From NCBI RefSeq assembly GCF_001429185.1, contig NZ_LMIW01000001.1:1205490-1269489 (forward strand): a stretch of DNA of 64,000 nt, in the 5' to 3' direction. Numbering within the stretch: position 1 is the first letter of the stretch; each line of letters opens with the position of its first letter. Shown piece after piece: positions 3,587-64,000 of the stretch. The notes under the pieces were generated by a model. It had not been told where the DNA came from, searched no databases, and worked only from the letters and a program-made list of their open reading frames with translations. A program made the translations under genes and the position numbers. The stretch is from Terrabacter sp. Root85. Its GTDB lineage: Bacteria; Actinomycetota; Actinomycetes; Actinomycetales; Dermatophilaceae.

Positions 3587-4159
3587 TCAGCCTCGCAGTT
3601 CGAGGACGGTCTTGCCGATCCGCAGGGTGGTGCCGATCTCGACGGGTCGCGCCCCGGTCAGCCGGTCACGTCCGATGAAGGTGCCGTTCGTCGAGCCGAG
3701 GTCCTCGACGACCCAGCCGTCGCGGCCCGACGGGTCGGGATGGATGCGGCAGTGGCGGCCCGAGGCGTAGTCGTCGTCGAGGACGAGGGCGCACTCGGGG
3801 TTGCGCCCGATGAGGATGCCGCCGCTGCGCAGGGGCAGCGACGTCCCGGTCAGGGGGCCCTCGGTGACGACGAGCGTCGTCGGGTTGCCCTTGCCGCGGC
3901 GACCCTTGCGAGCGGGCGCCTCGGGGGTGACGGCGGCGGCACCCGCCGCGCCGGCACCGACGGCCGCCGGGGAAGGCGTACGTCTCGGGGCCGCCTTGCG
4001 GTCCTGCTTCGCGGCCTGCTTGAGCGCCTTGCGCTGCCCGCGACGGCTCACCGCCGTGCCGTAGATGTCGGTGCGCAGCACGCCGACGACGCTGAAGATG
4101 AAGATCCACAGCAGCGCGAGCAGACCCAGCCGCAGCAGGGTCAGGGTGAGTTCACTCAT
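3587..4159 (-). CDS. fhaB: FHA-domain membrane protein FhaB (FipA-like)
   Basis: Phosphothreonine-binding adaptor of the cell-wall and division signalling cluster. It has 190 residues. One N-terminal transmembrane helix (about 8-28) is followed by a basic and Ala/Pro-rich linker, then a C-terminal FHA domain (about 100-180). The domain shows GILIGRNPECALVLDD, the SGRHCRI strand and the STNGT loop that read phosphothreonine. Ligands in relatives are proteins phosphorylated by PknA/PknB; the ligand here is not visible. It lies 49 bp after fhaA and 4 bp before pstP. Confidence 0.94.
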   Translation of the reverse strand: MSELTLTLLRLGLLALLWIFIFSVVGVLRTDIYGTAVSRRGQRKALKQAAKQDRKAAPRRTPSPAAVGAGAAGAAAVTPEAPARKGRRGKGNPTTLVVTEGPLTGTSLPLRSGGILIGRNPECALVLDDDYASGRHCRIHPDPSGRDGWVVEDLGSTNGTFIGRDRLTGARPVEIGTTLRIGKTVLELRG

Positions 4160-4208
4160 GCGTCACCAGATGTCATCAGCGGAGGGCCGTCCAAGGGGGT
4201 CATCGCGC

Positions 4209-4994
4209 TCACCGGCGTCCGGCGCGGAAGGTCGCGGACGTGCGGCCGATCGTCAGGCGGTCGCCGTCCTGGAGCCGCTGGCTCGAGACGCGCTCGCCGT
4301 TGACGAAGGTGCCGTTGGTGGAGTTGAGGTCGCGGATCGAGGTCACGAGGTGCGGGCCGTCGGTCGTCACGCGGATCTCGCTGTGGCGGCGGGACACCCC
4401 GGGGTCGTCGATGACGATGTCGGCGGTCTCGTCGCGGCCGAGCGTCGTCAGGCTGCCGAGGAGGGGGTAGCGGTCGCCGCCGATGTCGAGCCACGGACGG
4501 GCGGACGGGTTGGAGCGGGGTGCCGGGCGGTGGACCGGGGCCTCGTCGATGGCCGTGCCGTTGGTGGTCTGCGGCCGCGGTGCGGCCGGGGCCGGCTCGC
4601 GGGCGGCGGACTCGCGCCCGGCCTGCTTGGCGGTGGCCGGGCGCACGCGGAAGACACCGGTCTCGAGCCCCTCGCCCTCGACGAGCGCGACCTCGAGGGG
4701 GCCGCCGGGCTGGTAGCCCTGCGAGTCGGCGTGCTCCTGCGCCGCGGCGACGAGGTCGTCGGACAGGTCGTCCTCATAGTCGCCGAGCCGCTCGTAGTCG
4801 GTCTGGCTCAGCTCGATCGTGTAGAGGTTGGGCACCATGGCCCGGCCGTGGCCGAGCAGCGCCGCCCGGTCGTCCATGGCGCGGCGGATCGCCGAGGCGA
4901 TCTCGACGGGCTGCACCTCGGACTTGAACGCCTTGGCGAAGGCACCGTGGACAGCCTTGGCGAGACCGTGCTCGACACGGTTGATGATTCCCAC
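4209..4994 (-). CDS. fhaA: FHA-domain protein FhaA (DUF3662 plus FHA)
   Basis: Soluble phosphothreonine-reading protein and first gene of the cluster. Residues 1 to about 115 form the DUF3662 domain, starting MGIINRVEHGLAKAVHGAF and including the VQPVEIASAIRRAMDD stretch. About 80 Ala/Pro-rich residues connect it to a C-terminal FHA domain (about 175-255) with TTLGRDETADIVIDD, SRRHSEI and NSTNGTFVNGERV. In mycobacteria FhaA binds the phosphorylated pseudokinase domain of MurJ/MviN and restrains wall synthesis; transfer of that role here is inference. The 222 bp upstream is shared with the divergent ParA-like gene, so both promoters must lie there. Confidence 0.94.
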   Translation of the reverse strand: MGIINRVEHGLAKAVHGAFAKAFKSEVQPVEIASAIRRAMDDRAALLGHGRAMVPNLYTIELSQTDYERLGDYEDDLSDDLVAAAQEHADSQGYQPGGPLEVALVEGEGLETGVFRVRPATAKQAGRESAAREPAPAAPRPQTTNGTAIDEAPVHRPAPRSNPSARPWLDIGGDRYPLLGSLTTLGRDETADIVIDDPGVSRRHSEIRVTTDGPHLVTSIRDLNSTNGTFVNGERVSSQRLQDGDRLTIGRTSATFRAGRR

Positions 4995-5216
4995 GCCGTC
5001 TCCTCCTCCTTGGTGAGCGCTCCTGTCGGGCGCTTCATCGTAACCGGGTCAGCACCCCGAGCCTCCAACCGACAGTCGGCGCGGGGTGCCGCGAAACGTC
5101 CGTTTCGCCCCCGTGAGCCCCGGTCGGCGGGTTTGATGTGCGACGGAAGCATGGGACGATCACCCGGGGTCCCGCGGCGGGTTCCCGCACGTGGTTAGGC
5201 CAGCAAGGAGCGCTCG

Positions 5217-6812
5217 ATGAGCAAGGACGAGACCGGAAACACCGAGAGCCAGGGCATCCCCGGCTTCTCGGCGAACAACTCCATCCCGGGTGGTTTCGCC
5301 CTTCCCATCCCGACGGCGACCGCCGGCGCGGCCCAGCCCGACGAGGCGCCGGCCGACCCGTGGAGCTCGACGTGGGAGGACACCTCCTGGCAGACCGGCG
5401 ACACCGGTGCCATCCCGACCGTCGCCGCCGGCGACGCAGCATCGGCCTCCGACGACTGGACCGCCTCCTATGAGTACGGCGGCGAGAGCGCCGCCGGCGA
5501 CGCCCACGAGCTGAACGGCCACGCCCAGAACGGCTCGACCCAGAGCGCCTCGGACACGTCCGGCGCCTCCGGCGCGACGAACTCGTGGACCGACTGGCAC
5601 CCCTCCGACCCCGGTACCGCCGAGTGGCCGGCCGCGAGCAGCGACGAGCCCGAGGAGACGTACACCGGGTGGACCCCGGCGGGGGCGAGCCTCGCGGACT
5701 ACGCGGCGGGCACCGTGCCCGGTCCCTCGGCCGCGGCGTCCACCGACCACTCCGCGGCGCAGGAGGCGTATGCCGCCCGGCCGGCCGTCGACCCCGACGT
5801 GGCCGCCGCGGCTGCCGAGCTCGGCCACGACGTCGAGTCCCCTGCGGAGCCGTCCTACGACCTGACCCCCGCGGCGCGCACCGGCAACTCCGACCGCCCG
5901 AGCGCCGAGGACCTCATCACGGCCCGGTCGAAGGGTGAGCGCCAGAAGGTCAAGGCCAACTCCGGCCTGCGCAAGGCGTTCGGCCTCGGCCCGAGCGTCA
6001 AGGAGATGCTCGAGCGCGACCGCATCGACCGGATCGCCCGCCCGCTCAACGGCCGCAAGACGATCATGGTCATCAACACCAAGGGCGGCGGCGGCAAGAC
6101 CCTCGTCACGCTGATGCTCGCGAGCTACCTCGGCCGCTACCGCTCGGGCTCGGTGCTCGCGTGGGACAACAACGAGACCGAGGGCACCCTCGGCATGCGC
6201 GCACCGTCGCAGAGCCACCACCGCACGGTCGTCGACCTGCTCGGTGCCCTGCCGACGATCGCCAACGACCCCAACGCCGGCACGTCCGAGCTCGAGCACT
6301 GGGTGCGCGAGCAGCGGGGCCTGAGCTTCGACGTGCTGGCCTCGGCCGACGACGACGAGGCGATGCGCATCATCGGTGAGTCGGAGTTCGAGAACCTCCA
6401 CACGCAGCTCTCGCGCTTCTACCGGATGATCGTCGTCGACACCGGCAACAACCGTCTGTCGCCGAACTGGCTCGCGGCCGCAGCCCGCGCCGACATGCTC
6501 GTCTTCGCGACGTCGCTCAAGGACGACACGTCGGTCGTCGCGGCCAAGAACCTCGACGCGCTCGTCGCGATGGGCCGGGGCGACCTCGTGCGCAACGCCG
6601 TCTGCGTCATCTCGCACACGTCGGCCAAGGGCAACGACGTCGGCGCCGGCGTGCACACCCGCGAGCACTTCGAGCAGTGGGTGCGCGCGGTCGTCGACAT
6701 CCCCTACGACCCGATGCTCGCACCGGGCCTGCACCTCGACCCGCTGAAGATCAGCCCCAAGACGCACCAGTCGTGCATGGAGATGGCTGCCGTCGTCGTC
6801 GACGGCCTCTGA
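5217..6812 (+). CDS. MinD/ParA-like P-loop ATPase with long disordered N-terminus
   Basis: The C-terminal half (about 280-531) is a MinD/ParA-type ATPase with a deviant Walker A motif KGGGGKT at residues 289-295 and a VVDTGNN strand in the Walker B position. The first 270 residues are acidic and rich in Ala, Ser, Thr, Asp and Gly, without predicted fold. The start is well supported by AGGAG six bases upstream. Such ATPases position chromosomes, septa or secretion machinery. Relatives with a disordered N-terminus occur near type VII secretion or cell-pole genes (EspI-like), but no ESX gene is visible, so the cargo is unknown. Divergent transcription from fhaA suggests a link to cell envelope or division; this is inference. 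Confidence 0.85.
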   Translation: MSKDETGNTESQGIPGFSANNSIPGGFALPIPTATAGAAQPDEAPADPWSSTWEDTSWQTGDTGAIPTVAAGDAASASDDWTASYEYGGESAAGDAHELNGHAQNGSTQSASDTSGASGATNSWTDWHPSDPGTAEWPAASSDEPEETYTGWTPAGASLADYAAGTVPGPSAAASTDHSAAQEAYAARPAVDPDVAAAAAELGHDVESPAEPSYDLTPAARTGNSDRPSAEDLITARSKGERQKVKANSGLRKAFGLGPSVKEMLERDRIDRIARPLNGRKTIMVINTKGGGGKTLVTLMLASYLGRYRSGSVLAWDNNETEGTLGMRAPSQSHHRTVVDLLGALPTIANDPNAGTSELEHWVREQRGLSFDVLASADDDEAMRIIGESEFENLHTQLSRFYRMIVVDTGNNRLSPNWLAAAARADMLVFATSLKDDTSVVAAKNLDALVAMGRGDLVRNAVCVISHTSAKGNDVGAGVHTREHFEQWVRAVVDIPYDPMLAPGLHLDPLKISPKTHQSCMEMAAVVVDGL

Positions 6813-57406: not shown

Positions 57407-58094
57407 GTCTCGACCCGGGTGAGGAGTGCGCCCGGGGCGTGCAGGCATGAAATGCGCGACGCAACGCGATCGCTCGTCGTGTGCGGTGCGCCCAAACGCG
57501 GCGAAGTGACGCAGGTCCGGACTGGCCGCTGACGCGGCTGTCCCGATGGTTGCTGCTGACCATCAGAGCTCGTTCCGATCGTCGGCGCGGGCTAGAGATT
57601 GTCGTTGATCAGTTACCGTCGCAACATAAGAACGCAGCAAGGGCGAGGGCCAGTCGCGAGGAGGAGATTGCCTTCCTCATCCTGGAGCAAGTCCCTGGGT
57701 AAGCATTTGCCTCGCGGATGCTGGAGCGGGGGCCCGTGACGCGGTCGCTACAGGGACGCCCGACCCACGGACAAGGGAATCTCCGCCGTGGTCAGCCGGT
57801 TCGACGCCCTTCTGCGATTCGATTCGCCAGCCTCCGCCTCGGACGACAACTCGGCACCGAAGTCGTTCCGGTCCTTTCCCGCCGCGAGCTCGCAGACCCA
57901 TCCGCACGCGCGTGACTCGACCCACAGCTAGGCAGTCGGAGTCGCACACCAAGATGTGTTGCCCAGTGAGGTTGTCGAGCCCGGTGACGAATGCAACCTT
58001 GCCAATCGCTGAAGGGATGGCACTCGCCCTGCGTACCCTCGCTCTCCGGGCAACGGCACTGTGGAGGTGCGGCTACTGGGAGGGGTAGAACTGC
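57407..58094. other. Gene-poor junction before the defence island
   Basis: About 690 bases without a supportable gene. Short open frames on both strands lack ribosome-binding sites and family features. Composition becomes less GC-rich (for example 57590-57680 and 57930-58010). No integrase, transposase end or clear direct repeat is visible. It looks like an insertion junction with decayed sequence. Confidence 0.5.
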
Positions 58095-58979
58095 CTACTC
58101 GACGGGATCTACAAGCTCGATGTCGTAATTGATGCCCGTCATCTGCAGCATCTCTCGCAGCCCGAGCAACCGAGCCTCGACGTTGACCCCGCCTTGTTGG
58201 TCAGTAACCTTGAGGGTTGGCTGTGAGGGGTTTCGTGGGTTGCCCCCGACTCCGAGCATCGTGAAACCGAAGTTCTTGACCTCGCTATACGCGTTCATTG
58301 CCGTTGCAGCGGCGGTAGCGAGCGATGCTGCCCTGGTCTTGAACGTGGCATTGGTCCGCTCGGCGTTTGTTGTCTCCGCAGCCGCTTGGGCAGTCGATGC
58401 TGCCTGACGCTGCAGGGAACGCACGATGTCCAGCACCTCGGCCATGATTTCGTCCGGTGACCGACGTGGCGCTGGATGGCCCGGGTGGCTGTTCTCGATC
58501 TCGCGGAAGGGCATCTCGAAGTCGTCCCACCACTTGTGAAAGACGGTCTTGAGCGTCTCCGAAGGCTGTTGCCGGTTCGGTTCGCACGTGGCGTTGAGCG
58601 CTTTCACGAGCTTATACATGTCGTCTTGGTCCGGCAACGTTGTCTGGAACCGTCCGAGCGGGGGCGGAAGGTCGCGCTTGCCTTTGAAGCCAATGAGCAG
58701 AGGGGCGACCAACGTCGGCTCATTGTCGACTTGCTTGCTCAGCGCTCCCGCCTCGAACAGGAGCCAAGGCTTCTCCTGGTTGCCGGGAGTGACGCAAACG
58801 ATGCCGAAGTCTGACTGGTTCAGTTCCTCGATGATGGCCTGGCTCCAGTTGCCGCCCTTGCTGATGTCCTCGCCGCTGACAAACGGGTCGAAGTCCTGGT
58901 TGATCAGGGGCAGCCATCTCCGCAGTAATTCGGCCGTCTTGCGGCTCCGCGTCCCCGACCAGCTGATGAAGATCTTCAT
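58095..58979 (-). CDS. TIR-domain protein, probable defence NADase
   Basis: 294 residues. Residues 1 to about 135 are a TIR domain: MKIFISWSGTRSRKTAELLR, then VTPGNQEKPWLLFEAGALSK where Glu76 is in the position of the catalytic glutamate of NAD-cleaving TIRs. Residues about 165-235 are Ala/Thr-rich and helical (AASTAQAAAETTNAE...), and the final 55 residues (LKVTDQQGGVNVEARLLGLREML) have no recognised fold. Known defence TIRs deplete NAD+ or make signalling cyclic ADP-ribose; no Thoeris ThsA is near. GGGAGAGG precedes the ATG. Base composition is lower in GC than genes to the left. Confidence 0.85.
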   Translation of the reverse strand: MKIFISWSGTRSRKTAELLRRWLPLINQDFDPFVSGEDISKGGNWSQAIIEELNQSDFGIVCVTPGNQEKPWLLFEAGALSKQVDNEPTLVAPLLIGFKGKRDLPPPLGRFQTTLPDQDDMYKLVKALNATCEPNRQQPSETLKTVFHKWWDDFEMPFREIENSHPGHPAPRRSPDEIMAEVLDIVRSLQRQAASTAQAAAETTNAERTNATFKTRAASLATAAATAMNAYSEVKNFGFTMLGVGGNPRNPSQPTLKVTDQQGGVNVEARLLGLREMLQMTGINYDIELVDPVE

Positions 58980-59062
58980 CGTGCCTCTCCCTGTAGTGAC
59001 TCAGCCTGACGCTACCAAGCAGGCTGTCGCCAGAGCGCCCACACGGCCGGACGACCTGACCG

Positions 59063-59239
59063 TTGGGAGGCTCTAGCGTCGGAAGGGCCGCACTCCTGGG
59101 CGTGGCTCTGGGCGTTGCCATTGGGATCACGGAGCAGACGTGGCGAATCGCTCTAGGAGCCTTTGCCGCGATTGCACTCTTTGGCACCGGACTTATGTAT
59201 GACCTCGGTCCGGCGGTCCCAATGCCCTGTCGGTCATGA
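59063..59239 (+). CDS. Possible small membrane protein (low support)
   Basis: A 58-codon frame with a TTG or later GTG start, containing one hydrophobic segment of about 25 residues (ALGAFAAIALFGTGLMYDLG) preceded by another (AALLGVALGVAIGI). It ends in TGA overlapping the ATG of the next small frame (ATGA at 59236-59239). The overlap and hydrophobicity suggest a real pair, but starts are weak and no family is recognised. Confidence 0.3.
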   Translation: MGGSSVGRAALLGVALGVAIGITEQTWRIALGAFAAIALFGTGLMYDLGPAVPMPCRS

Positions 59240-59520
59240 CGATCATTTTCGCGTCGTTCGCATGCCTCCTGGTGGGCGTCCCTTCTGCTTTCCTCGCCTA
59301 TAAGCACACTCGTCTGGGGGGAGAGGCACACCGGCAGGCGTCGCGAGTGACTGCGGGGCGCAAGTCGTGGGCGTCATCCTTGCCGCAAGAGGTTCTCCCC
59401 CAAGAGCCTTGCTCCTCAGCCAAGGAGCAAGGCGCCAACTCCACCTTCGCACCGCGAAGGGTAGGCCCTCGGTCGCAAGGCAGGGCCTGGCCAACGTCCG
59501 CTTCTCGGCAGCGCCGGTAA
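59236..59520 (+). CDS. Possible small membrane protein (low support)
   Basis: 94 codons. The first 30 residues (MTIIFASFACLLVGVPSAFLAYKHTRLGGEAHRQ) look like one transmembrane helix and a cytoplasmic turn. The remainder is Arg/Ser/Pro-rich and crosses a hairpin at 59406-59433, so the true product may be shorter or decayed. No family recognised. Confidence 0.3.
   Translation: MTIIFASFACLLVGVPSAFLAYKHTRLGGEAHRQASRVTAGRKSWASSLPQEVLPQEPCSSAKEQGANSTFAPRRVGPRSQGRAWPTSASRQRR
59406..59433. terminator. Hairpin, possible terminator
   Basis: GCCTTGCTCCT (59406-59416) pairs perfectly with AGGAGCAAGGC (59423-59433) around a 6-base loop. It lies between the small plus-strand frames and the minus-strand zinc-ribbon gene and could terminate either. 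Confidence 0.55.
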
Positions 59521-59579
59521 ATAACGACCGCGGGAGAGGCCAGCTCGCGGCGGTGTGACGCGCCGCCGACGGCCCGAGC

Positions 59580-59846
59580 TCAGGACCTCCGCTTCGGTCC
59601 ATCGCCCCCATCGTCATCGATGGTCATCGTTGCTTCGTCCGATTGCCGACCTGTGCCGAACGTCGTATTGCATAGGACGCAGGTGAACCTGCCCACTCCG
59701 TCCGACGGATGCGGCCCATAGTGCTCGCAGACGGGGCACTCGGCGTTGAGGACTCGTATCTCGAAGGCCACGCATGGAGCGAACGCAACGGCGACGCCGC
59801 CGTGGGCGGGATCGGGCGCGGTTAACACGCGGCGAAAGGGACGCAC
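59580..59846 (-). CDS. Small zinc-ribbon protein
   Basis: Up to 88 residues. Two CxxC knuckles (CPVCEHYGPHPSDGVGRFTCVLC) with about 15 residues between form a zinc ribbon, followed by an acidic tail (DDDGGDGPKRRS). The first 25 residues are less convincing, and an internal GTG (near VAFEIRVLNAECPVC) may be the true start. The role is unknown; location between TIR and Qat genes suggests an island passenger or accessory. Confidence 0.5.
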   Translation of the reverse strand: MRPFRRVLTAPDPAHGGVAVAFAPCVAFEIRVLNAECPVCEHYGPHPSDGVGRFTCVLCNTTFGTGRQSDEATMTIDDDGGDGPKRRS

Positions 59847-59912
59847 TGTGCAGCGTGTTGAATGCCGGACCCCAAGAAGTGCAATGATCGGGTCGGAGTC
59901 GGACCCAGAGGG

Positions 59913-60089
59913 CTATGGAGATTGTAGAAAGTGCCGATGGCCCCGCGACCGGTTCCCGAGCTGGTCGGGAAGCAGCCCGCCTACGAGCTCGGTGAGCAAG
60001 GCCATCTCCTGCTCCGACACCCCCGCCTCCCTCTGACCCGGACGGATCGGCCCCAGAATCGGGGACGGCTGTTCGATGATCGGGTCAGC
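59913..60089 (-). pseudogene. Coding-like fragment without a start codon
   Basis: On the minus strand a frame of about 57 codons, ending at a TAG near 59914, reads IEQPSPILGPIRP and then REAGVSEQEMALLTELVGGL, which has protein-like composition. There is no plausible start or ribosome-binding site, and the frame opens directly after a TGA. It may be the 3' remnant of a gene displaced by the qat operon. No family can be named. Confidence 0.3.
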
Positions 60090-60094
60090 CGCTG

Positions 60095-60907
60095 TCAGTT
60101 CTGATGATCATTTCGACTTCCATCGCTGACAGGAGGCAGCAGAGGCTCAGTCTCGACGGGGTAGAGCAGGGCGGCTTGCTGGGCGTTCAGCCGGTCGAGG
60201 GCGCCGGTCACACTCAGGATGCGGCGAAGGTTGTCGTGGATGAGGGCTCTGGGCTGGGAACCGGGGTGGCTTGCCGCGATTAGTTCCTCGGCCTTCGTCG
60301 TATCGCCGGGAAGGCGTGCGCCGATCTTGCGTCGCGAGCTGGGAAAGTCGGTCTCAGTGAGCAGCCGGTCGGCGGGGATTGCGCTCACTGTCTCGGGCGG
60401 CATCGCTCCGTTGACGGAGAAGTAGCAGCCGAGGTCGAGTGCGCGGCGCAGGTCGGTGGGACCACCGGTGAACCAATGAAGGATCGCACCGGGGTGCGGC
60501 CTGCGTTCGAGCGCCTCAAGGAGTTCGGAGGTTCGACCCGTACTGTGCAGGGAGATGAGCACCGGTGCGTCGTGGCATTCGTCAAGGACGGAGTCGAGGA
60601 TGGTCCGTTGCTGCTCACGTGGCCCACGACGGTCGAGCCCGACTTCTCCGACTACGGCGAAGTATTCGAGGGCTTTGCGGAAGGCCTCGGGTCGGTAGGC
60701 GTCACGTGACTCCGCTACTGCAGGGTGCGTGCCAACGCCCCACAGGACATTCGTGTCGACGCGCCGAACGACTTGGCGTGCCTCGTCGAGACTTCTGGTC
60801 ATGCCGAAGACGAAGGCGTTGCCGAGGTCATGCACCTGCTGGCGGGTCACGCTCGGGGCGATGTGTGCGTGTGCGTCGATGCGGGGTCGTTCAGTCCTGG
60901 GGAGCAT
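60095..60907 (-). CDS. qatD: QatD: TatD-like metal-dependent DNase
   Basis: 270 residues from ATG 60907. The TatD-type hydrolase ligands are in order: His13 and His15 (DAHAHI), Glu88 (GEVGLD), His121 (ISLHST), His144 (ILHWFTG) and Asp187 (TETDFP). In the Qat anti-phage system QatD is the TatD-like component, proposed to act on nucleic acid. It overlaps the QatC stop by 17 bp and is the last gene of the operon. The frame is open to 61300, but that is antisense to qatC. Confidence 0.9.
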   Translation of the reverse strand: MLPRTERPRIDAHAHIAPSVTRQQVHDLGNAFVFGMTRSLDEARQVVRRVDTNVLWGVGTHPAVAESRDAYRPEAFRKALEYFAVVGEVGLDRRGPREQQRTILDSVLDECHDAPVLISLHSTGRTSELLEALERRPHPGAILHWFTGGPTDLRRALDLGCYFSVNGAMPPETVSAIPADRLLTETDFPSSRRKIGARLPGDTTKAEELIAASHPGSQPRALIHDNLRRILSVTGALDRLNAQQAALLYPVETEPLLPPVSDGSRNDHQN

Positions 60908-62171
60908 CAAAGAGTTCCTTGCGTCCACGTCGGGCGACGTCGAGATACGCCTCCACGTTGGCACCTTCCGGCCATGGGGCGCCGCTGATGAGGTCACGTG
61001 AGGCGATGGGGTGCTTTTGGGCATATTCAATGGCCCAGAGGTCGCCGTGGCGGTTGTATCGGAGTTTCGCGAGGCTGTCACCGGTGAGGCGCTGGCTGGC
61101 GTATGTGGTGGGGTCTGCGAGTTGGGCGGCCACGTACGCTCCGCGGCGAACGAGGCACGCAACACAGAGCCCACAGTTGAGGTTTGGGTCTCCCCCCTTG
61201 TATCGGCCACTGTCCAGCTTCGCGCAGGACAGGGACTCTCCGGTGAGATGCAGGAATGAGGTAAAACCGCTTGTTTGCGCCGCAGCCGCAGCCTGCTCAA
61301 GCATCTGGCCCTTCGTGACCATCTCGTACGGATTGCGGACTACGACGTCGAGCCCGAGGCCGCTGAGTACGCGATTGAGCATGTAAAAGGTGAAGGGATG
61401 CGTGGAGCGGGTAGTGAGCGCTCCGCTGCGTGCCGGGGTGAGAGGGTAGTTGACGCTAGTTGATCCGTTCTCGGGGACGATCACTTCGCTCGCGTGGCGG
61501 GCGCTTGCGGCTGCAATCCCCATGGACATGAACAGAAGGGAGCGGCTGCGAGTGGATCGCTCCTTTTTGCGAGTTGTGACTCCGAGGTCGTCTCGTTGCC
61601 ATTCGAAGGCATTGTTCGCGCTCGCAAGCGTCTTGCGGATCTGTTCCTGTGCGTGACGTACGGCGCGCGCGGCATCGCGGTGCCCAATGTGGAGTGTGTT
61701 TGCAGCATCGTCCAGGCTGATGACTGCGCCACAGAGGGAGTCGAGCCCGCCCGAGAGCAGCATGACCCGCTCGATGTCTGCGAGTCCCTTCATCTGGCCG
61801 ATCGCGAGCGCGGCGGCCGGGATAAGATCAAGAGTCCAGATGTCTCCGGTGAGCCATGCCAGTAAGTCGACGACATCGTCTTGCACCTCCTTTGTCCACG
61901 CGTCAGGGTTCTCGACATGGACGGAGATCACCAAGTCGCGAACGTGATCCGCGGGGCGTGCCTTGGTGAGGTCTGCGGAGTAGGCGGCGACAGCCACTCG
62001 AAGGACGTCGAGAGCCTGTGGGGCGGCCGACCCGTATTGGTAAGCGTTCCACGAGAGTGTGCTGGCGATTCCGTCGGACTGGTCGTTCGCTGGCCAGATC
62101 ACGGCTCTGCCGTGAGTTCGGAGGGCAGCCCCCGCGGGAGCCAGTTCCAGGTGGCTCGAGGGTCTGTTCAT
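60891..62171 (-). CDS. qatC: QatC: QueC-like ATP-dependent enzyme of the Qat system
   Basis: 426 residues. The PP-loop ATP-binding motif SGGLDS is at 140-145 (VMLLSGGLDSLCGAV). A QueC-type zinc site is formed by Cys316, Cys333, Cys336 and Cys339 (CAKLDSGRYKGGDPN...CGLCVAC). QueC makes 7-cyano-7-deazaguanine; QatC proteins are longer, with an extra N-terminal region of about 130 residues as seen here, and their reaction in defence is not settled. Coupled to qatB by a 4-bp overlap and to qatD by 17 bp. Confidence 0.92.
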   Translation of the reverse strand: MNRPSSHLELAPAGAALRTHGRAVIWPANDQSDGIASTLSWNAYQYGSAAPQALDVLRVAVAAYSADLTKARPADHVRDLVISVHVENPDAWTKEVQDDVVDLLAWLTGDIWTLDLIPAAALAIGQMKGLADIERVMLLSGGLDSLCGAVISLDDAANTLHIGHRDAARAVRHAQEQIRKTLASANNAFEWQRDDLGVTTRKKERSTRSRSLLFMSMGIAAASARHASEVIVPENGSTSVNYPLTPARSGALTTRSTHPFTFYMLNRVLSGLGLDVVVRNPYEMVTKGQMLEQAAAAAQTSGFTSFLHLTGESLSCAKLDSGRYKGGDPNLNCGLCVACLVRRGAYVAAQLADPTTYASQRLTGDSLAKLRYNRHGDLWAIEYAQKHPIASRDLISGAPWPEGANVEAYLDVARRGRKELFDAPQD

Positions 62172-62965
62172 GACGGTCCCTTAATGAAGATGGTGATGAC
62201 ACCTTCGAGGATGTCCCCGCAGTGCTTTCCGAACATGGAGGGCCCAAAGTATGCACCTCTCACTACGGGGTGGTCTTTAAGGGTCTCGTGGATGTAGTCC
62301 TTCAGGTCGTGCTCAAGGGTGATGATCTCGTCCACGGTGCGGGTAGCAGCGAAGGCGTCGGCGGTCAGTTCACGGATTGCCAGCTCGTACACGTAGTGCT
62401 CGGCGAAGAGCTGAACGGTGTCGGCTGGTGTTGCTTCGGTGACTTCGTCGCTGAGTTGGATGAGGGCTTCGAACGAGGCGCGGCGGAGCACTTCGTCGTC
62501 GGGTGATCCAGGCGGACCTAGCGTGGCGTTGAGAATGGCGTCGCAGCGCCCCTCGGCGGAGAGGGCGCTAAGAGTTTCGAATGACAGTGTTGGGTCAACC
62601 TCGGCCAGCATTCCGCGATCACCGGATGCGACCGCGTACCCGGCAGCCAGGGCGGCGCCTGCTCTCGCTGCGTTGCTGCGAGCACCCCCCGAGCCGCGAG
62701 ATGTGGAACCGCCACGGCTGGTCGTAGTCCCCGACCCGCGACTGGGACGACCGGCCGGCGGCGTCCAACTCGCTGGTGCCGTAGTCGAGGCACGAAGGGC
62801 ACGAGCGATCGCGGCCGCGAGTTCAGCAGGGCCAGGCGTTTTCGGCCGGGGACCGTCCGAGGATCCGCCTGAAGTTGACGGTGTTAAGTCCATTTCCCCA
62901 ACAAGGTTTTGGACCTGCTTCCATGCGGACGAACCGCTGCCCCCGTATGCCCCTGATGTGCCCAT
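62168..62965 (-). CDS. qatB: QatB: Qat system component of unknown function
   Basis: 265 residues. It opens with MGTSGAYGGSGSSAWKQV, the Gly/Ser-rich start typical of QatB, followed by a Pro/Thr/Ser linker and a Gly/Ser/Arg-rich stretch (about 60-95). The C-terminal 170 residues are helical, with LFAEHYVYELAIRELTADAFAATRTVDEII. No enzyme motif is visible. Gene order and overlaps (one base with qatA, four with qatC) support its identity. Confidence 0.85.
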   Translation of the reverse strand: MGTSGAYGGSGSSAWKQVQNLVGEMDLTPSTSGGSSDGPRPKTPGPAELAAAIARALRASTTAPASWTPPAGRPSRGSGTTTSRGGSTSRGSGGARSNAARAGAALAAGYAVASGDRGMLAEVDPTLSFETLSALSAEGRCDAILNATLGPPGSPDDEVLRRASFEALIQLSDEVTEATPADTVQLFAEHYVYELAIRELTADAFAATRTVDEIITLEHDLKDYIHETLKDHPVVRGAYFGPSMFGKHCGDILEGVITIFIKGPS

Positions 62966-64000
62966 CAGCCCATGCCAAGCTTCTCTCGAGCCGTGTTTCG
63001 AACCGGCTGCGATGCGTCGGAGTCGTCAGCTGCGATCTCCTTGAGGATGTCGGTGGGGTTCGTCATGCGGGCGAGGCGGAGGATTGACCCTGGGTTGAGG
63101 GTGCGGAATCCCCGGCGTCGTACAGCGGCGTACACCGCTCCGGAGGCCGAGGGGTGTTCCGCTGCCACATCGCAGATGGCATCGAAGACCTTGGTGGGGT
63201 TCTTGAAGGAAGCCAGCCGGTCCATGACCTTGGGCACAAAGACGGCGAGCTCCTCACTCTTCCGCTTCTTCAGGCTGGCGACGAGCGGCTTGATCTTGGT
63301 GTCCGCGCCGGTGTTGAACTCGACGAAGGCCGCGTTCTCCCAGTCGAGGTGTTTCTCACGAATGTCGATTCCGTGGAAGGTGCGCGCGAGGCTGAGGTAT
63401 GCACCTACTTCGTCTGCGTGATCACTGAGCCGTGGGCCGCTCCTGCCCCACTCCTGCATCTCGGAGGAAAAGGCCTCGTCCGGGTACTCCGCACCATCGT
63501 CACCGTTCACCCACGCGTCGAGACGGGCAAGGGCGGCCGAGCGCTCCTGGTCCGACATTGACGCGAAGGCCGTGAACTTTGTGAGGTCTCGCTCTTCGAA
63601 GATCGCCAACTTCAAGGAAACCCCATGGTCGATAAAGATGCCTCTCGCTCGGGCGACGCTGTTGCGGATGCCCCAGCCGTTAAGGAAGCGCTTTACAGCG
63701 CGCGGACTGCTCCACCTATCGGCCGACAGGACCTCTGCGAACGCGTACGCAAGACTCTCCTCCTCGTCGGTGGGTCGCGGCGTATCCGCGTTCAGTCGAC
63801 CGAAGATGCCGTCAAGTCCACCATCCCAATTCCGAGCGACATCCTCCGCGAGGACTGCAAACTGGTCCGGGTCGTTGATTCGGCGTTCTGCGAGAAGGAG
63901 TGCAACGAATACCACGGCCCCCGGCTTGGTCAGGCGAGGCAGTGTGACCGGAACCTGAACGATCTTCTCCAAGTACCGGTTGGCGAACTCGGGTCCCCGA
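62965..64000 (-). CDS. qatA: QatA: KAP-family P-loop ATPase, C-terminal part
   Basis: About 345 C-terminal residues; the N-terminus with Walker A lies beyond the right edge, so no start is assigned. Reading from the edge, GPEFANRYLEKIVQVPVTLPRL matches the KAP NTPase segment after Walker B, and SPRAVKRFLNGWGIRNSVAR is the sensor-2-like KAP motif. QatA is the ATPase of the Qat system and may sense infection. The TGA overlaps the qatB start (TGATG). Confidence 0.9.
   Translation of the reverse strand, partial: RGPEFANRYLEKIVQVPVTLPRLTKPGAVVFVALLLAERRINDPDQFAVLAEDVARNWDGGLDGIFGRLNADTPRPTDEEESLAYAFAEVLSADRWSSPRAVKRFLNGWGIRNSVARARGIFIDHGVSLKLAIFEERDLTKFTAFASMSDQERSAALARLDAWVNGDDGAEYPDEAFSSEMQEWGRSGPRLSDHADEVGAYLSLARTFHGIDIREKHLDWENAAFVEFNTGADTKIKPLVASLKKRKSEELAVFVPKVMDRLASFKNPTKVFDAICDVAAEHPSASGAVYAAVRRRGFRTLNPGSILRLARMTNPTDILKEIAADDSDASQPVRNTAREKLGMG

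Follow-up and report, generated by a model that had tools for sequence, protein, structure and literature searches.

A complete, divergent Qat operon in Terrabacter sp. Root85, a host without a detectable 7-carboxy-7-deazaguanine pathway

The window analysed here is a stretch of 64,000 nucleotides from the actinobacterium Terrabacter sp. Root85 (NZ_LMIW01000001.1, positions 1,205,490 to 1,269,489), at the right-hand end of which a preliminary description, made from the sequence alone, had placed an operon of the anti-phage system Qat (qatA, qatB, qatC, and qatD). The four coupled minus-strand genes described there do form a single operon in the diagnostic order qatA-B-C-D, with overlaps of 1, 4, and 17 nt in gene order and zero internal stops (Table 1). 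Since qatA runs past the end of the window, it was completed from the host genome (4.87 Mb in 15 contigs); the full gene (L002:8455-10170) encodes 571 amino acids (aa) from its likely ATG, which was preferred to the TTG start of the listed open reading frame (ORF; 590 aa). The extension supplied the P-loop (SPWGGGKSS) expected of a KAP ATPase, an assignment previously made from the C-terminus, and the Walker B motif (VVLVDDLDRC) is also present. The listed 401-aa ORF for qatD (to 61300) was judged to be over-extended because relatives begin just ahead of the D-x-H-A-H motif, and the start was set to give 270 aa. The MGTS start of QatB, the SGGLDS motif and four Cys of QatC, and the TatD motifs of QatD were all found intact, as first described. 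To the right of qatA, the next ORFs look like genes for carbohydrate enzymes and for a lipoprotein that binds sugar; no queDEC genes were seen there, and the operon lies outside any queuosine context (translations read by eye, no family search).

Table 1. Features of the Terrabacter window and related two-gene loci in other genomes.
Feature	Position	Strand	Remarks
Low-GC island with TIR gene and qat	57450..64000 in window, to ~65323	.	GC 0.631 vs 0.698 and 0.738 in flanks
TIR-domain protein	58095..58979	-	294 aa; PADLOC TIR-TM 8.4e-58; Pfam TIR_2
qatD	60095..60907	-	270 aa; TatD-family hydrolase: DAHAH, GEVGLD, SLHS, LHWFTG, ETDFP
qatC	60891..62171	-	426 aa; QueC-fold ATP pyrophosphatase, N- and C-terminal extensions, SGGLDS, Cys4 site
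qatB	62168..62965	-	265 aa; MGTS N-terminus, Gly/Ser-rich tail, helical core
qatA (KAP P-loop ATPase)	62965..64000 in window, gene to ~64680	-	C-terminal part; last 680 bases beyond window
qatBC-like two-gene loci	L096 (G208), L097 (G789), L098 (G807), L099 (G371)

Profile and fold comparisons agree with this gene-by-gene assignment. PADLOC profiles match QatA (5e-66), QatC (4e-66), and QatD (3e-30) strongly and QatB at just 0.0026; Pfam recognizes KAP_NTPase in QatA (1.7e-40), QueC in QatC (1.1e-5), and TatD_DNase in QatD (2.2e-28), with no Pfam match for QatB. The NCBIfam Qat models likewise match all four proteins, each under its equivalog cut-off (bits/cut-off 250/600, 35/100, 247/280, and 112/230), a threshold passed by just two of the eight QatC matches in the same bacterial family. 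The predicted folds of QatC and QatB agree with the solved QatBC complex. Alongside the operon order, the locus has the Walker A and B motifs of QatA, the MGTS start, tail, and core of QatB, the SGGxDS motif, Cys4 site, extensions, and fold of QatC, and the metal-ligand motifs of QatD; the features that depart from expectation are the NCBIfam scores and one member of a pair of QatC threonines (T278 kept, T280 replaced by Ser). The locus is a real, complete, and divergent Qat operon of an actinobacterial clade, and it is probably a working one. The sub-threshold NCBIfam scores could be taken to mean that the operon is decayed or unrelated to Qat, or it might be a queuosine gene cluster; this is extremely improbable given complete frames, intact motifs, matching folds of both core proteins, relatives under purifying selection (see below), and a genome without QueC, QueE, or TGT matches. 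A queuosine cluster was rejected on that last ground together with the gene content to the right of qatA. Compared with the Qat systems of P. aeruginosa and E. coli (PMC13279940; PDB 9y01/9y02, 9zee, and 9vlk), the operon has the same gene order, KAP P-loop, MGTS-type QatB, SGGLDS and Cys4 QatC, TatD motifs, and QatB and QatC folds, whereas QatC is 23% identical to the solved protein across the fold match and QatA is shorter (571 aa vs 624–652 aa in six plasmid-borne systems).

In a midpoint-rooted tree of 35 QatC rows, 18, including this QatC, group together (support 96/81); four rows lie elsewhere on long branches, and one Rhodococcus row labelled cyanobacterial is taken as a name mix-up. 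T278 and T280 of QatC are reported as invariant active-site threonines (PMC13279940), and the alignment places T254 and S256 of the Terrabacter protein at these sites. The preliminary statement that all visible active-site residues are intact is thus correct for the ATP site, the zinc site, and TatD but not for the second invariant threonine. Ser occupies the T280 site in 19 of the 19 clade loci readable there, and T278 is kept in every readable clade row; the 19 include L034, which is short, not in the tree, and 81% identical to L032, and L036 is unreadable at the site, its qatC being interrupted there. Outside the clade, Thr stands at the T280 site in 16 of 18 readable rows, the exceptions being two odd QatCs (L011 and L040), and seven later loci from the class, outside the tree, divide into four with Thr (L089–L092) and three with Ser (L093–L095). 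Because the other sequence and structure features of Qat are present, equivalog cut-offs excepted, the change from T280 to Ser is read as a probable shift within the Qat family. PMC13329287 names a W-x-R motif, and its Trp is also missing from this QatC and from three other aligned clade rows.

At E 0.001, QatC was detected in 8 of the 186 family genomes searched and in none of 8 other genomes of the same genus, and at E 1e-15 in 10 of 394 genomes of the class. A genome_contigs scan with four close QatC sequences returned 17 loci, all with actinobacterial titles; in the phylum search, 9 of 17 matches (E 2.9e-5 to 9.8e-4) were judged to be other proteins than QatC and set aside; and of 120 plasmid records, 60 were listed and eight were read. 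The QatC proteins of G737 and G806 are near-identical. One genome (G180) carries a very divergent QatC with SGGxDA and a Ser at the T278 site (L100, 3984-5237, minus strand); its neighbors, identified by eye, are an XRE-type regulator and a short uncharacterised protein, and its 8.7-kb contig gave no profile match for QatA, QatB, or QatD.

Published experiments place the core of the system in its two middle genes. QatB-QatC alone protects against some phages, with QatA and QatD affecting the range; the ATP site of QatC, both threonines, and Gly2 of QatB are required for defense, which is abolished by QatB G2D; and in E. coli, Qat makes the plaques of lambda, T4, and P1 fewer or smaller (PMC13279940). 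An E. coli queC mutant does not regain queuosine when given QatC (PMC13279940, PMC13329287), the Tyr/Asp that bind 7-carboxy-7-deazaguanine (CDG) are replaced in QatC, and CDG is missing from QatBC crystals grown in its presence (PMC13279940). Cap9 of the type IV cyclic-oligonucleotide-based anti-phage signaling system (CBASS) attaches a 7-deazaguanine at an N-terminus (PMC11996544, PMC13279940); for Qat, the action of QatC on QatB is treated as an unanswered question (PMC13279940). The idea, raised in the preliminary description, that a 7-deazaguanine-type enzyme and a nuclease modify nucleotides, tRNA, or DNA finds no support in a QatB-QatC core that depends on the N-terminal Gly and a QatC that fails to complement queC, and it is weighed against further by a host without QueC, TGT, or QueE matches.

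CDG synthesis requires QueD and QueE (PMC13329287), and most species that possibly do not use queuosine fall in Actinobacteria and Tenericutes (survey PMC10570037). Profile searches of the Terrabacter genome gave no QueC, TGT, or QueE match and one PTPS match, the neighbors of which do not read as que genes (by eye). This protein is without the Cys and last His of the C-x3-HGH stretch found, also by eye, in the QueD proteins beside QueE of G583 and G591. It was rejected as a QueD on this motif, which was compared by eye since neither QueD protein gave a phmmer match to it; the Cys was found in just these two of the 12 PTPS loci read. Among 31 QatC genomes, QueC over its cut-off was found in 1, PTPS in 12, TGT in 7, and QueE (at E 0.001) in 6, two of the latter at ≥70 bits and four fragmentary; seven further QatC genomes of the class sample had neither QueE (0/7) nor QueC over cut-off (0/7), and the TGT and PTPS searches covered 31 of the combined 38. 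At E 0.001, QueC matched in 11 of 31 and 1 of 7 genomes, nearly all of them short pieces; one is over cut-off, and G583 has a match of 67 bits. Together, the 38 QatC-bearing actinobacterial genomes comprise 32 without a QueE match, four with a fragmentary one (G044, G180, G227, and G580; 21–28 bits over 78–85 of 238 positions, counted as negative), and two with a good one; the 70-bit line was drawn after the matches had been seen, and counting any match at E 0.001 gives 6/38. Seven genomes (G180, G208, G227, G367, G371, G789, and G807) were kept in the 38 though their QatC is divergent or partial or they are without QatA/QatD. Of 14 named control genomes, 10 gave a QueE match at E 0.001, among them every one of the nine with PTPS; in one of the ten the match was over cut-off.

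The two hosts with a good QueE, a Phytohabitans (L026) and a Saccharomonospora (L034), both have a broken qat: the former, with no qatB seen, runs from inside qatA into qatC, and the latter retains the second half of qatC with no qatA or qatB seen. Avoidance of CDG-making hosts by qat was given up as a statistical claim: QueE at ≥50 bits was found in none of eight clear QatC genomes of the phylum sample, compared with 63 of 396 genomes overall, so that about 1.3 would be expected; some QueE match at E 0.001, mostly weaker, occurs in 242 of the 396. Two of two broken loci in QueE hosts are too few, and qat is also disturbed in QueE-less hosts, by an insertion in qatC in L036 and by a qatA split over frames in L029. 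Two further observations concern interrupted loci: the piece within qatC of L036, a Mycobacterium, is ~1.6 kb long (4118-5735), and an IS1380 transposase lies within qatA of a Rhodococcus pyridinivorans plasmid (L013, 1458-5091).

Given where that survey places the species that may not use queuosine, the lack of QueE in these hosts is unsurprising; what counts is that intact Qat persists there. In pairs of clade members (54–85% protein identity), the ratio of nonsynonymous to synonymous substitution rates (dN/dS) was 0.105–0.278 for QatC (eight pairs) and 0.085–0.338 for QatB (five pairs), with 10 of the 13 values at or below 0.15; at dS of 0.72–2.99 these values are rough. None of the ten hosts in these pairs has a QueE match, and the qatB and qatC genes of the clade are, as judged from dN/dS, under purifying selection in hosts without a detectable CDG pathway. 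M1 and G2 of QatB are invariant in 20 aligned rows, hand-picked (L008, L012, L013, L016, L019, L030, L031, L037, and L038 are left out) and in some cases given a start at M-G, and the N-terminal Gly is the most conserved feature of QatB among the rows aligned.

On balance, we favor the reading that this is a complete and probably working Qat system in which QatC ligates a carboxylate, probably not CDG, to the N-terminal Gly of QatB, while QatA and QatD have accessory roles; the reading draws on the gene set, motifs, folds, host gene content, and purifying selection in relatives. QatC would bind QatB and spend ATP on activating a carboxylate-bearing small molecule, which would then be attached to QatB at its N-terminal Gly, freed by the removal of Met from MGTS; the modified QatB-QatC complex would block phage growth, and QatA (a KAP ATPase, DNA-binding in published work) and QatD (a TatD-type nuclease) would extend the range of phages. 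A CDG donor is unlikely here because CDG synthesis seems to be beyond this host and beyond most of the Qat-bearing actinobacteria examined, and the molecule joined is probably a different one. The N-terminal ligation chemistry, the non-CDG donor, and the activity of the operon are things that we infer. Several points weigh against this reading: PMC13329287 speaks of a proposed protein carboxydeazaguanylation by QatC, CDG thus being the donor favored by one group; a single profile (TIGR03365) underlies the absence of QueE, and a divergent QueE might escape it, nine of the ten matched controls lying below its cut-off; CDG may be imported or made by a non-orthologous route; and the clade's qat may move between hosts, so that selection may have acted partly in CDG-making ones.

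An unlikely alternative is that QatC joins CDG to QatB as Cap9 does, the CDG coming from an unrecognized route such as a divergent QueE or uptake. The shared QueC fold, the resemblance of the MGTS tail to the MGGS of CBASS with its essential Gly2 (PMC13279940), the preference of PMC13329287, and the one PTPS-family protein retained in this genome speak for it; the replaced CDG-binding residues and CDG-free crystals described above, a good QueE in 2 of 38 and TGT in 7 of 31 QatC genomes, and the missing QueD Cys of that PTPS protein speak against it. We also think it improbable that nothing is ligated to QatB and that ATP instead drives a conformational switch of QatBC, the QatB tail being a regulatory plug in the active site. 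Ligation has not been reconstituted in vitro (PMC13279940), and a tail lying within the active site fits both views; the conservation of the N-terminal Gly and the effect of G2D on defense argue against a switch. Phages with 7-deazaguanine DNA are known, and a host without the pathway would be accounted for if CDG or a related base were made only by que-carrying phages and used by QatC to sense infection. We regard this as very improbable, and we know of no queE in lambda, T4, or P1, which counts against it. Also against it, Qat acts on these three phages in E. coli (PMC13279940), a bacterium that makes its own queuosine.

Purifying selection on Qat in hosts without a detectable CDG pathway argues against CDG as donor, and such hosts make the donor question testable, offering both a natural test and a clean background in which to find the attached molecule; in the literature listings searched and in the two Qat papers (PMC13279940 and PMC13329287), we saw no study asking if CDG is made by Qat hosts. 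More speculatively, and with some doubt on our part, ligation of a carboxylate other than CDG might be extended to the actinobacteria as a whole: QatC would handle no 7-deazaguanine and would ligate some other common carboxylate to the QatB Gly, an undescribed modification, with QatBC ancestral and QatA and QatD added to it.

In four genomes (G208, G371, G789, and G807), a protein with an M/V-GTS start comes before QatC, and profile and tblastn searches of the 17 kb read found neither QatA nor QatD; the identification of QatB in these loci is by position and start motif, with a weak profile match in G807 only (4e-4, 6e-4). Such naturally occurring loci with qatBC only are in accord with the minimal unit reported in print and are unmentioned in the results and discussion of PMC13279940; as qatA lies near just 34.3% of the QatC cluster (PMC13329287), there is room for them. 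The qatBC pair of G807 is followed by genes for an N6 methylase and a specificity-like subunit, and one qatBC-like locus adjoins a gene resembling pglY (by eye). These loci, the Ser-bearing QatC clade, and the occurrence of Qat in hosts without a detectable CDG pathway are new here; the Qat system, its QatB-QatC core, and the N-terminal Gly of QatB as the probable target are already in the published record.

Type IV CBASS (Cap9/CdnD; PMC11996544; PDB 9nto) resembles Qat in that an enzyme of the QueC fold is paired with a partner bearing an N-terminal Gly motif, and the kind of ligation is likely the same. In contrast to QatC, Cap9 keeps the CDG-binding Tyr/Asp (PMC13279940); its fold matches the Terrabacter protein more weakly than does that of QatC, and no nucleotidyltransferase or TGT-like Cap10 adjoins qatC. 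A type IV CBASS was rejected because the neighbors are qatA, qatB, qatD, and the TIR gene and the genome has no TGT-family match (no separate CD-NTase search was made). QueC has in common with QatC the fold, SGGxDS motif, and Cys4 zinc site, whereas QatC has 426 aa with its extensions and matches TIGR00364 at just 0.011.

The operon sits on a variable island of low GC content. In a genome of the same genus (G171) both flanks are common (87–93%) but the site holds a different cargo of 9.9 kb, and in G173 and G176 the left flank alone is in common, within the 19 kb read. The TIR gene of the island was considered as a fifth Qat gene and rejected, no homologue being found in the other qat loci read, many of them with 1.5 kb of flank only; it is probably a separate defense gene. 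A 289-bp piece (window 59547-59835) is 96% identical in G171 despite the different cargo and overlaps an 88-aa ORF with CxxC motifs, which has no Pfam match at 0.05 (zinc-ribbon at 0.053). The G171 cargo (L086, 10742-13226), with no clear PADLOC match, encodes a GAF/HATPase protein and a 450-aa protein opening like a response regulator (by eye).

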